The position numbers and the translations under genes were made by a program. Under the pieces are notes generated by a model. It was not told the origin of the DNA. It did no database searches and saw nothing but the letters and a program-made list of their open reading frames with translations. From Fimbriimonadaceae bacterium (lineage in GTDB: Bacteria > Armatimonadota > Fimbriimonadia > Fimbriimonadales > Fimbriimonadaceae), in assembly GCA_019638775.1 (NCBI GenBank), contig JAHBTD010000002.1, forward strand, positions 992,001-1,056,000: a stretch of DNA of 64,000 bases, read 5' to 3'. Below, piece after piece: positions 3,129-53,261 of this stretch; position 1 is the stretch's first letter, and each line of letters opens with the position of its first letter.

Positions 3129-3133
3129 GGATC

Positions 3134-3205
3134 GGCTATCGGCTATCGGCTATCGGCTATCGGCTATCGGCTATCGGTCTTGACGGCCGATAGCCGTTTG
3201 TTTTT
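3134..3205 (+). terminator. Intrinsic terminator built from a 7-bp tandem repeat
   Basis: Six exact copies of GGCTATC occupy 3134-3175. The last copy (CGGCTATCGG, 3168-3177) pairs with CCGATAGCCG at 3187-3196, leaving a 9-nt loop, and TTTGTTTTT follows at 3197-3205. Because the repeat is tandem, the right arm can pair with any of several registers. It lies 5 bp after the stop of the first DinB gene, so it probably ends that transcript. Confidence 0.75.
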
Positions 3206-8975: not shown

Positions 8976-10157
8976 ATGCAAGACGTTGTTATTCTTTCCG
9001 GTGTCCGCACTCCCGTCGGCGCTTATCTCGGCTCCCTTTCGACCCTGCCCGCAACGAGACTCGGCGCAGCCGCCATTAAGGAGGCTCTAGTTCGTGCAGG
9101 CGTCACGCCCGAGCAGGTCGATGAAGTTCTCATGGGCATGGTTCTTCAGGGCGGAGTTGGGCAAGCCCCGGCTCGCCAAGCCGCACTTTATGCCGGACTG
9201 CCGCAGAGCGTCCCTTGCACAACCGTGAACAAGGTCTGCGGATCGGGCATGAAGACCGTGATGATGGCTGCGCAGGCGATCAAGGCCGGCGACGCGGAGA
9301 TCGTGGTTGCGGGCGGCATGGAGTCAATGAGCATGGCCCCTTACGTCCTGGACAAGGCTCGCACAGGCTACCGGATGGGCAACGGCACCCTGATCGATAT
9401 GATGATCCATGACGGCTTGTGGGACCCCTACAACAACGTTCACATGGGGAGTTGCGGCGACCTTTGTGCGAAGGAGGAGAATTTCAGCCGGGATGAACTT
9501 GACGACTTCGCCGCAGAGAGCTTCCGAAGAGCGCAAGAAGCGCAGAAGTCTGGGAAGCTGGCGGAAGAGATCGTCGCCGTGGAGATTCCTCAGCGCAAGG
9601 GCGACCCGGTCGTGGTGAAGGACGACGAAGGCCCGGGCAAGGGTGGCGACCGCGAGAAGATGCGCGGTCTGCGAGCGGCATTTGACAAAGAGGGCGTCAC
9701 GACAGCCGCTAATGCCAGCTCGATCAACGACGGTGGCGCGGCGATGATTTTGTCTTCTGCGTCCAAGGCGGCGGAGTTGGGCTTGAAGCCGATTGGAAAG
9801 GTTGTCGCCTATGCCCAGCACGCCCAAGACCCGCAGTGGTTTACGACGGCACCCGCCGAAGCGGTCAATAAGCTGCTCGCCAAGGCCGGATTAAGCGTCG
9901 GCGATATCGACCTTTTTGAGGTCAACGAGGCGTTCGCCGTCGTGGCGATGGTGGTCGCTCGCAAGTGCGGAATTCCGCACGAGAAGCTGAACGTGAACGG
10001 CGGTGCTGTGGCGCTGGGGCACCCGATTGGCATGACGGGCACACGGTTGACGATGACGGCCCTGCATGAGCTTCGTCGTCGGGGTGGGAAGTATGCGGTG
10101 GCGACGCCCTGTATCGGTGGTGGTGAAGCGACGGCGATTTTGATTGAAGCGCTCTAG
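8976..10157 (+). CDS. Acetyl-CoA C-acyltransferase (thiolase)
   Basis: 393 residues, full length for a biosynthetic or degradative thiolase. It condenses or cleaves acetoacetyl-CoA and 3-ketoacyl-CoA. The active residues are Cys88 (VNKVCGSGMKT), His349 (VALGHPIGMTG) and Cys379 (TPCIGGGEA). The closest known type is acetyl-CoA acetyltransferase (AtoB/PhaA), but chain-length preference cannot be read. It is a single gene, isolated by repeat regions on both sides. Confidence 0.93.
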   Translation: MQDVVILSGVRTPVGAYLGSLSTLPATRLGAAAIKEALVRAGVTPEQVDEVLMGMVLQGGVGQAPARQAALYAGLPQSVPCTTVNKVCGSGMKTVMMAAQAIKAGDAEIVVAGGMESMSMAPYVLDKARTGYRMGNGTLIDMMIHDGLWDPYNNVHMGSCGDLCAKEENFSRDELDDFAAESFRRAQEAQKSGKLAEEIVAVEIPQRKGDPVVVKDDEGPGKGGDREKMRGLRAAFDKEGVTTAANASSINDGGAAMILSSASKAAELGLKPIGKVVAYAQHAQDPQWFTTAPAEAVNKLLAKAGLSVGDIDLFEVNEAFAVVAMVVARKCGIPHEKLNVNGGAVALGHPIGMTGTRLTMTALHELRRRGGKYAVATPCIGGGEATAILIEAL

Positions 10158-10163
10158 GGGCGC

Positions 10164-10387
10164 GTCGGCAAGTAGTCGGCAGGTTGTTGGTGAAGTCTTT
10201 CTACACCCTCACCCTCTGCCCCCTCTCCCTCGGTCATTAGGGAGAGGGGAAAGTCGGGTCGTTGGCAAGTAGCATCCGACTCTATGTTCTAAACGAGGGG
10301 TGAAAGTACCCCCCATAACGGCAGTTAAGGAGGGATCGGTGACCACTTGCCGACAATTTGCCAACCACCTGCCAACCACCTGCCGAC
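10164..10387. repeat. Inverted pair of 11-bp GTYGGCARGTG arrays
   Basis: After the thiolase stop, 11-bp units run at 10164-10196 (GTCGGCAAGTA, GTCGGCAGGTT, GTTGGTGAAGT). Four units lie in the opposite orientation at 10344-10387 (reading GTCGGCAGGTG, GTTGGCAGGTG, GTTGGCAAATT, GTCGGCAAGTG on the minus strand). The arms could fold into a long imperfect stem between two convergent genes. The middle holds CCCTCTCCCT...AGGGAGAGGG (about 10221-10249), another hairpin. Confidence 0.75.
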
Positions 10388-10397
10388 GTGCCCTTAA

Positions 10398-10751
10398 CTA
10401 CTTCGAATACAGCGGCTGATACAACATCACCTTAAAGTCGCCGGGGACTTTCATATAGGTGATCAGGCCGAAGCCCGCGTTCACAATCCCTTGTGTGAAC
10501 TCCACGCCCTTCTCTTTCAATTCCTCGACCGTCGCTTCAATATCATCGCAATAGAAGGAGATATCGCAAGTGCCGGATGGCGGCGATTCGGCTTCATCGG
10601 TGGGGTGGCAGCCCATGTCGGCTTCGGGGAGATTGAAGATCAGCCAGCCGTCGCCGACATCGGTTGCCGAAAAGCCGATCTTGTCTCGCAGGAAGGCCCT
10701 CAGTTCATCGGCCTTCGAACTGTAAAACATCGTGTGAACACCGCGAATCAT
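10398..10751 (-). CDS. VOC/glyoxalase-fold protein
   Basis: 117 residues, one vicinal-oxygen-chelate domain: MFYSSKADELRAFLRDKIGF at the start, LPEADMGCHP, DISFYCDDIEATVEELKEKGVEF and a C-terminal GLITYMKVPGDFKVMLYQP. The predicted metal ligands (His near GCHP and Glu/Asp in the second half) are only partly conserved, so it may be a binding protein rather than an enzyme. No substrate can be assigned. Confidence 0.8.
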   Translation of the reverse strand: MIRGVHTMFYSSKADELRAFLRDKIGFSATDVGDGWLIFNLPEADMGCHPTDEAESPPSGTCDISFYCDDIEATVEELKEKGVEFTQGIVNAGFGLITYMKVPGDFKVMLYQPLYSK

Positions 10752-41557: not shown

Positions 41558-41785
41558 CAAACACTCCTTGGGCACCCCGAACCATCGGGATACAAGTTAA
41601 GTTCTTTCGTTCAGCTTCTTCTGCTCTTGGGCGATTCTTTTAGAACCGTTGCCCGGGTCAACTTGCTCGGGTCGGCATCGCCGCCAGCTTGAAGCCGTAC
41701 GATTTCGTTCTCCGATTGCTCGGAGCGCGGGTCAGAGTTATACCCAATTGGAACAGGAAAAGGGAAACAGGGCCTATTGGGGGAC
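41558..41785 (-). other. Upstream region of the rplC cluster
   Basis: No gene is seen. On the minus strand the segment holds short potential stems, for example CCCGAGCAAGTTGACCCGGG near 41652-41671 and CCGAGCAATCGG near 41717-41728. It may hold the promoter and untranslated leader of the rplC operon, but no promoter motif can be named with confidence. Confidence 0.35.
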
Positions 41786-41892
41786 GTTGGCAAGTTTTTG
41801 TCAGGTGGTCGGCAGGTGGTTGGCAAGTTGTCGGCAAATGGTTGGCAGGTGGCGTTGAGTGTTCAGGCATTCGGGCGTTTAGGCGTTCAGGT
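41786..41892. repeat. 11-bp array joined to an 8-bp array
   Basis: Six in-phase 11-bp units lie at 41786-41851 (GTTGGCAAGTT, TTTGTCAGGTG, GTCGGCAGGTG and so on). They are followed at 41861-41892 by four 8-bp units (GTTCAGGC, ATTCGGGC, GTTTAGGC, GTTCAGGT). The first family also occurs at 10164-10387, the second at 39017 and 53146. The array is between the VOC-GNAT gene 3' end and the rplC leader. Confidence 0.8.
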
Positions 41893-43630: not shown

Positions 43631-43819
43631 AGCTATCAGCGAACAGCTATCAGCTATCAGCTATCTGCAATCAGAGATCAGTTATCAGTTATTAGCGATC
43701 TGCCATCAGCGATCAGTTATCAGCAATCAGCAATCAGCAATCAGCAATCGGCAATCAGCAATCAGCAATCAGAAATCAGCAATCAGAGATCAGTTATCAG
43801 CGATCTGCCATCAGCGATC
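43631..43819. repeat. 27-unit degenerate 7-bp tandem array (AGNNATC)
   Basis: Twenty-seven heptamers run without any insertion or deletion. Most read AG-NN-ATC, with the middle pair varying (CT, CG, CA, AG, TT, AA; a few begin TG or GG). Examples are AGCTATC, AGCAATC, AGAGATC, AGTTATC and TGCCATC. A sub-block of about five units (AGAGATC to AGCGATC) is itself repeated at the two ends. The gap 43553-43909 holds no gene. Confidence 0.9.
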
Positions 43820-53076: not shown

Positions 53077-53145
53077 CCTGCCAAGATTCGTCCGAGGTGT
53101 CTAATACGACCTATAGGACATCTAAGACCTATTCAAAGGGCCCCC

Positions 53146-53240
53146 CACGCCCGAATGCCTGAACGCCTGAACGCCCCAATGCCTCACGCCCAACGCCCAA
53201 CGCCCAACGCCCCACGCCTCACGCCTCACGCCTCACGCCC
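53146..53240 (-). repeat. 7/8-bp GTNNGGC array
   Basis: Read on the minus strand, the gap before lysS holds about thirteen units: several GTGAGGC, several GTTGGGC (both 7 bp), then GTTCAGGC, GTTCAGGC and ATTCGGGC (8 bp). The last three match the units at 41861-41892 exactly. The array lies between two divergent starts. Confidence 0.8.
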
Positions 53241-53261
53241 AAGTACAATCAACTCCCTATC

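Follow-up and report, generated by a model that had tools for sequence, protein, structure and literature searches.

The 11-bp repeat in the thiolase-VOC spacer

The window, the whole stretch of 64,000 nucleotides that was analysed, covers positions 992001-1056000 of contig C2 in a genome of 4.3 Mb. In this window, a thiolase gene and a gene for a glyoxalase/VOC family protein converge on a spacer that carries 11-bp units in two opposed arms (Table 1). The initial annotation had reported these units both in this spacer and in a distant array, and they were confirmed at both places. The left arm starts 6 nt past the thiolase stop codon (10155-10157), and the right arm starts 10 nt past the stop codon of the VOC gene (10398-10400). 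The distant array is built from the same 11-bp unit in phase. A hairpin located between the arms is a second G/C-rich stem, unrelated to the arms themselves. Exact matches to GTYGGCARRT were found 12 times in the window, all of them inside these two regions. Allowing one mismatch resulted in 54 matches compared to a mean of 29.03 in shuffled sequences, and at least 54 matches were obtained in 0 of 100 shuffles.

Table 1. Coordinates of the 11-bp arrays and of neighbouring features (window positions unless a stretch label is given)
Feature	Position	Strand	Remarks
Thiolase gene	8976..10157	+	flanking gene; Pfam C-terminal domain match to residue 391 of 393
Left-arm leader	10158..10163	+	immediately 3′ of the thiolase TAG stop (TAG GGGCGC)
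Left arm	10164..10185	+	two perfect units GTCGGCAAGTA GTCGGCAGGTT, then a decayed third GTTGGTGAAGT
Separate C-rich/G-rich hairpin CCCCCTCTCCC...GGGAGAGGGG	10219..10249	.	within the inter-arm loop
Lone unit GTTGGCAAGTA	10261..10271	+	between the arms; 11-bp phase of the left arm not kept
Right arm, four units	10344..10387	-	GTCGGCAGGTG GTTGGCAGGTG GTTGGCAAATT GTCGGCAAGTG
Right-arm leader TTAAGGGCAC (letters of the - strand)	10388..10397	-	past the stop codon of the VOC gene
Glyoxalase/VOC family protein gene	10398..10751	-	flanking gene; convergent with thiolase
Stop-to-stop spacer	10155..10400	+	RNA predicted as one long stem-loop through both arms; -128.6 kcal/mol, z -9.03
Distant-array leader TTGGGGGAC	41777..41785	+	
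Distant array	41786..41851	+	six units, the second decayed; opposite strand to both flanking genes
Distant array to called start of ribosomal protein L3-like ORF	228 bp		ORF named from reading its translation
7-/8-bp arrays, window examples	43631-43819, 3131-3177, 53143-53242, 41861-41891		
Two-armed spacers (by eye)	window locus, L061, L062, L064:17950, L066, L067, L076		one arm often decayed

Genome-wide occurrence and phase

A genome-wide search for GTYGGCARRTN at 11-bp spacing yielded 107 phased pairs, compared to 0 for the reversed control pattern. The single word GTYGGCARRT occurs 306 times in the genome and its reversed form 53 times. Counted from the list of phased pairs, only about 30 loci are present in the 4.3 Mb. 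The unit length was also checked elsewhere, in 1.65 Mb of sequence: among 136 same-strand GTYGGCAR neighbours at most 60 bp apart, 114 were spaced by 11 bp and 129 by multiples of it. The earlier proposal of a separate repeat family, defined by an 11-bp unit and strictly phased, is thus borne out, and the phased pairs, the shuffles and the 129 in-phase neighbours rule out a chance origin. Beyond this initial observation, the arrays were found to have a leader, to abut stop codons, to be polar with respect to gene edges and to show a strand bias as well as site-specific variation of the unit.

In addition to the window, 80 stretches were read, giving 1.651 Mb in total. Twenty of them represent C2 1-400 kb regardless of arrays, 20 were placed mostly around known arrays and 40 were read for neighbourhoods and spread. 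This sequence contains 35 array pieces with 206 units, a density that is not to be equated with the genome average because many stretches were chosen around arrays or neighbourhoods. The commonest unit number is four, yet it accounts for only 7 of the 35 pieces; 15 pieces have four units or fewer. On contig C3 (569,942 bases) no phased pair was found. No 11-mer array was found there, and 7-bp arrays are present on this contig (TRF: L179, L181 and L182).

Anatomy of the unit and its leader

The consensus of 183 units from 32 array pieces is GTYGGCARGTD. Position 3 is C in 93 and T in 88 units, position 8 is G in 90 and A in 86, and position 11 is G in 97, T in 45, A in 40 and C in one. The remaining positions are 94-99% fixed, values that are inflated by the pattern-based choice of units, and the pattern already permits variation at positions 3, 8, 9 and 11. 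The same positions vary in 74 units that have perfect units on either side, 62 of which are perfect. Positions 3, 8 and 11 are mutually independent (p = 0.91, 0.89 and 0.50). Adjacent units are identical at positions 3, 8 and 11 with frequencies of 0.49, 0.45 and 0.30, compared to expected values of 0.51, 0.50 and 0.38. For units two slots apart, identity slightly exceeds expectation (0.54, 0.58 and 0.45), which fits a few arrays with a higher-order period of 22 or 44 bp. Independent variation at three positions per unit is hard to obtain by ordinary tandem duplication and needs an explanation of its own.

The arrays are often preceded on their 5′ side by a leader with a consensus of about TTGGGGGC, which takes the form of T or TAG, a G-run and then C. 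Runs of at least four G within 14 nt of the 5′ end were observed in 15 of 32 pieces, compared to 3% of random intergenic 14-mers. For runs of at least three G in 14 nt, the numbers are 21 of 32 on the 5′ side and 7 of 32 on the 3′ side, with 15% in random 14-mers. In L177 (before 9869) and at L074:8676-8686, a T-run precedes the G-run of the leader (TTTTTTGGGGGGC and CTTTTTTGGGC), soon past a stop codon. A decayed unit with at most three mismatches follows one slot past the last perfect unit in 16 of 32 pieces and stands before the first in 9 of 32 (p = 0.047); slots 2, 3 and 5 showed no difference, and slot 4 pointed in the opposite direction (p = 0.03). The array strand contains 44.7% G and 14.3% C, so that the opposite strand contains 44.7% C and 14.3% G.

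Siting relative to genes

Genes were called with our own simple gene finder, and no annotation was used. According to these calls, all 35 pieces are intergenic at a coding fraction of 87%, and 0 of 35 lies mostly inside a predicted gene, which rules out coding repeats. A CRISPR array is likewise ruled out, as the 11-bp units are contiguous and have no unique spacers between them. A gene is nearer to the leader (5′) end in 28 of the 35 pieces and to the far (3′) end in six, with one tie; the 3′ end of the array is usually not near a gene. Of the 20 pieces located 3′ of a same-strand gene, 16 start at most 11 nt from the stop codon or overlap it, compared to 16% for random placement. TAG serves as the stop codon in 12 of the 16 near-stop cases among the first 32 pieces, compared to 246 of 726 other genes (p = 0.0009). 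In 15 pieces, the leader faces a gene on the opposite strand, and the array begins 17-245 bp away from it. At L063:9607-9694, a glycosyltransferase gene enters the array by three codons, and its TAG stop is located at a unit-unit junction. In the thiolase and in a prolyl-tRNA synthetase, the match to the C-terminal Pfam domain extends to the end of the protein or nearly so (residue 391 of 393 and 504 of 504, respectively), indicating that these two genes are not truncated.

The initial annotation had tied the repeats to convergent genes. This association is not supported for the family, since 32 pieces fall into 7 convergent, 6 divergent and 19 tandem spacers, compared to 78, 112 and 347 spacers longer than 30 bp; in convergent spacers there is at most a slight excess of arrays. 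Twenty proteins encoded by the 55 flanking genes were scanned. A Pfam domain was found in 19 of the 20, mostly of metabolic or housekeeping type and without a common theme, and no transposase domain was found in these 20 of 55 proteins. Inspection of the two-armed spacers by eye revealed no target duplication of the IS type.

Distribution among genomes

Among 291 genomes of the phylum, of which 194 are at least 90% complete with little contamination, exact phased pairs occur in three: the genome of the window (107), G161 (Chthonomonas sp. UBA2387; 15) and G162 (Fimbriimonadaceae bacterium BROCD034; 8). Both relatives belong to the same family as the window genome, which places the organism in or near the Fimbriimonadaceae (Armatimonadota). 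Since 288 of the 291 genomes have no exact phased pair, no indispensable job can be assigned to the repeat family. In 44 units from G161 and G162, which are members of genus g27, positions 3, 8 and 11 were again the most variable, and some sites have a similar leader (TTTGGGGGC and CTTGGGAC). One orthologous site carries four units in G162 and three in G161, with differing variants. G026, the third member of g27 examined, has no phased pair; at the orthologous site the flanking gene is present and the array is absent, but the neighbour is a shorter predicted gene, so this was not taken as a clean empty site. In g27 (L079-L083 and L087), many 11-mers form composite blocks together with 7-bp repeats of the GTGAATC family, and in L031 the larger repeating unit made up in this way measures 70-81 bp.

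A scan of genomes across phyla matched eight contigs, two of which lie within the family (G161 and G162). In the genomes of the other six, exact phased pairs occur at one place each, and for this reason we treat these matches as chance or independent arrays. L035, L037 and L038 are single arrays of near-identical 11-mers in rumen Clostridia and a Prevotellaceae genome, at one place each, and position 11 is variable in L035 and L038. Viral contigs gave 0 matches, and one control pattern gave 1. Our data define a family of polar arrays in intergenic DNA that is dispersed over the whole genome and restricted in lineage. These arrays often begin with a leader, continue with n copies of GTYGGCARGTD and usually have their leader end on the side of a gene.

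Orientation relative to replication

As a proxy for the leading strand we used D, the difference in third-position G-C skew between genes on the + strand and genes on the - strand within 40 kb. The G-rich strand of the array is on the inferred leading strand in 24 of 35 pieces without any filter (p = 0.04). Restricting the comparison to pieces with at least four units and |D|>0.1, with called two-armed loci and split arrays kept, resulted in 19 of 22 in agreement; for single-orientation arrays of at least four units the agreement was 17 of 18 with |D|>0.1 and 18 of 20 without the D threshold, all of these filters having been picked after the data were seen. C4:37022/37108 is one array that was called as two pieces of the same orientation, and it was counted against the rule. 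Among array-free intergenic 45-mers of equal skew, 68 of 101 (67%) follow the leading strand. The strand bias is therefore partly an effect of composition and the excess over background is modest (Fisher p = 0.02 for 17 of 18 and 0.057 for 18 of 20). Among pieces with at least four units and |D|>0.1, those in tandem spacers lie on the leading strand in 12 of 12 cases regardless of gene direction, and those in convergent and divergent spacers in 7 of 10.

Arrays of period 7, 8, 14, 21 and 28 with a clear G-C skew agree in 43 of 55 cases, compared to 807 of 1279 control 45-mers (p = 0.02). By other measures, the same non-11 arrays gave 17 of 21 (purine content) and 29 of 46 (GAT versus ATC, p = 0.10). 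In the second genus (G161, weak skew) the leading-strand rule was not seen, with 4 of 12 pieces in agreement and 1 of 3 with |D|>0.1. No phased pair was found at C2 334-624 kb, where D turns from + to - and the terminus is inferred.

Comparison with known repeat families

Rehm et al. (2015; PMC4692102) describe GGGAATC/(GGGANTN)n heptamers in Xanthomonas and GGGGA(C/T)T in Nostoc, and in the sections of their paper drawn on here they treat the heptamers as G-quadruplex formers and leave their function open. The 11-mer belongs to the same kind of element as the G-rich heptamers of Xanthomonas, although its unit differs in length and has no G3 tract. Like the heptamers, as far as these sections describe them, the 11-mer arrays are dispersed over the genome, are intergenic and consist of heterogeneous units with fixed variable positions; they lie nearer to the 5′ neighbouring ORF (28 versus 6, with one tie, in our set); those on the sense strand are close to a stop codon or overlap it, and those on the antisense strand are located upstream of an ORF (PMC4692102). 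Convergent pairs, neighbouring genes of general metabolism, no visible link to mobile elements and changes of array length between relatives are further shared features in the same sections (PMC4692102). On the other hand, the unit is 11 bp instead of 7 bp, a TTGGGGGC-like leader is present, 0 of 35 arrays has four GGG runs and 0 of 35 is mostly intragenic, compared to 7-11% intragenic in Xanthomonas (PMC4692102). The leading-strand bias observed here (17 of 18 selected, 24 of 35 unfiltered) has no counterpart reported for Xanthomonas in these sections, which also state that the heptamers prefer four units (PMC4692102). With no piece carrying four GGG runs, the 11-mers are not of the G3 quadruplex type, and such a quadruplex is ruled out. 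A second, unrelated word of 11 bp in the Armatimonadota follows the same siting rules (gene-side 5′ end, flush with the stop codon, convergent pairs). This suggests that such rules are a property of this type of element as such rather than of G3 quadruplexes, by which the heptamers had been characterized.

The TAACTGA direct repeats of marine Beggiatoaceae are, in the portion of the report used here, also short intergenic direct repeats with many sets per genome and a patchy taxonomic spread; unlike the 11-mers, which often lie past stops, they are a fixed 7-bp word found mostly just upstream of starts (PMC4679880). No earlier report of the 11-mer family was found in the set of open-access papers searched, including those on tandem repeats in Fimbriimonas/Armatimonadetes. 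The heptanucleotide STRR repeats of heterocystous cyanobacteria resemble the repeats described here in forming tandem short intergenic arrays with several word families per genome. They differ in using 7-bp words, and we know of no stop-codon or leader rule for them. REP/BIME elements have a palindromic unit of 20-40 bp with a GTAG/CGTC tag and are extragenic, often as opposed pairs near gene ends. The 11-mer arrays share the extragenic location, the frequent opposed pairs and the position near gene ends. However, GTYGGCARGTD measures 11 bp, is not self-complementary and has no GTAG/CGTC tag.

A possible one-way transcription boundary

The siting rules, by which mostly the C-rich strand is read on entry into a gene and the G-rich strand on exit, lead us to propose that the arrays may be one-way transcription boundaries with a Rho-site-like C-rich strand. 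We put forward this reading tentatively, giving it somewhat less than an even chance. RNA that leaves a gene, more often co-directionally with the fork, would read the G-rich strand and pass. RNA that enters a gene from upstream, or antisense via its 3′ end, more often against the fork, would read the C-rich strand. Being C-rich and G-poor with cytosines every 11 nt, this strand resembles a Rho loading site, and the transcript would be ended. Two opposed arms would form a boundary that works both ways; between convergent genes, each transcript would exit via a G-rich arm and then encounter a C-rich one ahead of the next gene. Changes at position 3, 8 or 11 might be tolerated because the C-rich strand stays G-poor or because a free linker position is affected. 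If the arrays are directional boundaries, their orientation and periodicity would allow a simple inversion test.

The genome encodes Rho, with a score over the family cut-off. According to the part of PMC6407284 used here, a Rho site is defined by C > G and cytosines every 11-13 nt over 78 nt. We applied a simplified RhoTermPredict-like criterion that ignores the pause site (78 nt, six C at an 11-13 nt period, C/G >2). The C-rich strand scored in 35 of 35 pieces, the G-rich strand in 1 of 35 and controls in 126 of 1354; in a variant with 11-13 bases between cytosines the numbers were 33 of 35, 1 of 35 and 132 of 1354, results that largely follow from the composition of the arrays itself. The 15 pieces with four units or fewer are shorter than a classical rut site of 70-80 nt. 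In RNA-seq of Xac, as given in the sections of PMC4692102 drawn on here, transcripts more frequently began or ended at G4-forming heptamers than at control repeats, and this was true of transcripts with the G-rich strand as well as of those with the C-rich strand. Such independence of strand argues against one-way gating by the Xac heptamers, which are related in kind to the 11-mers. To our knowledge Nostoc is without Rho, yet it has a similar heptamer family, which counts against a Rho boundary as well.

Neutral repeats and other alternatives

It is as likely as a one-way boundary that the arrays are neutral or selfish short tandem repeats without function, which arise in intergenic DNA and expand there, either by slippage of whole units or by insertion into single-stranded DNA at the fork. 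Spacers would then be filled up to the gene edge because selection removes arrays that go further. Such an origin agrees with the lack of a theme in the flanking proteins (19 of 20 with Pfam domains, mostly metabolic or housekeeping), the many 7-bp families with different words in the same genome (126 intergenic period-7 rows), the difference between three units in G161 and four in G162 at an orthologous site, the patchy spread over 3 of 291 phylum genomes and the 22- and 44-bp higher-order repeats in single arrays. However, neutral growth does not account well for a recurring leader and one-sided abutment, with the 5′ end flush with stop codons and the 3′ end usually distant from genes. Simple duplication of units also fails to predict that, at positions 3, 8 and 11, adjacent units resemble each other no more than randomly paired ones do, and the leading-strand orientation is somewhat above background.

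A reading that joins the one-way boundary to replication and to the variation of the units appears unlikely to us. The arrays would be gates set by replication, at which the C-rich strand stops head-on or gene-invading transcription via Rho and co-directional transcription passes; their units would be written independently from a degenerate template instead of being copied from a neighbour, and the gates could be installed at many gene ends.

A role as target of a guide RNA or of a protein that binds DNA or RNA seems similarly improbable. The site-specific degeneracy, with other positions 94-99% fixed and with positions 3, 8 and 11 also most variable in g27, would suit such a function, and C/T at position 3 and A/G at position 8 would permit G-U wobble pairing. 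On the other hand, position 11 (G/T/A) misfits wobble, and the unit pattern already allowed variation at positions 3, 8, 9 and 11.

The opposed arms described for the window locus recur elsewhere in the genome: seven two-armed spacers were recognized by eye (Table 1), and in four of them both arms passed the array caller. The arms might pair in the transcript and act as a bidirectional terminator or a 3′ end protector in the manner of REP/BIME, which we also regard as improbable. Low folding z values were obtained for the window spacer (Table 1), L061 (-9.05) and L062 (-4.77), and the first two are predicted to form long RNA stems. The five lowest + strand z values among 22 array spacers all belong to two-armed loci, and the variants of the two outermost units are the same in both arms of L061. 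As a group, however, array spacers of 70-420 bp fold no better than controls, with z < -3 in 8 of 22 compared to 25 of 80 (p = 0.6) and median z values of -1.4 and -1.2, so that the hairpin is a trait of some two-armed loci and not of the family. A general hairpin function is not supported as a rule by these numbers. In addition, three of the eight loci with z < -3 look one-armed, the two-armed L076 folds poorly (z -1.4), most loci have a single called arm, and no T-run was seen by eye 3′ of the arms.

It is very unlikely that the arrays are polar chromosome signals that are maintained on the leading strand and read by a DNA translocase or a recombination enzyme (KOPS/AIMS or Chi-like): the motif is G-rich and 17 of 18 selected arrays have the leading-strand orientation, but units are clustered in arrays instead of being scattered, only about 30 loci are found in 4.3 Mb, and phased pairs are lacking on the 570-kb C3 and at C2 334-624 kb around the inferred terminus, toward which KOPS/AIMS- or Chi-like signals are expected to increase.

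Helical phase and the 7-bp arrays

The initial annotation had also suggested that a period of 11 bp, close to one helical turn, would place all units on the same face of the DNA. This idea proved weak because an 11-bp unit drifts by about 17 degrees per unit relative to 10.5 bp per turn and because arrays with a 7-bp period, which lack such a phase, are commoner here (126 intergenic rows versus 35). In 1.65 Mb, 138 period-7 rows were found, the 126 intergenic ones included, compared to 3 in 20 stretches (0.39 Mb) of 17 relatives. Intergenic 7- and 8-bp arrays of other words (AATCAGC, AGCTATC, AACGCCC, AAAATCC and GTGAATC types) are abundant in the genome, and four examples lie in the window (Table 1). 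In several of 13 such arrays examined, variation is found mainly at fixed positions.
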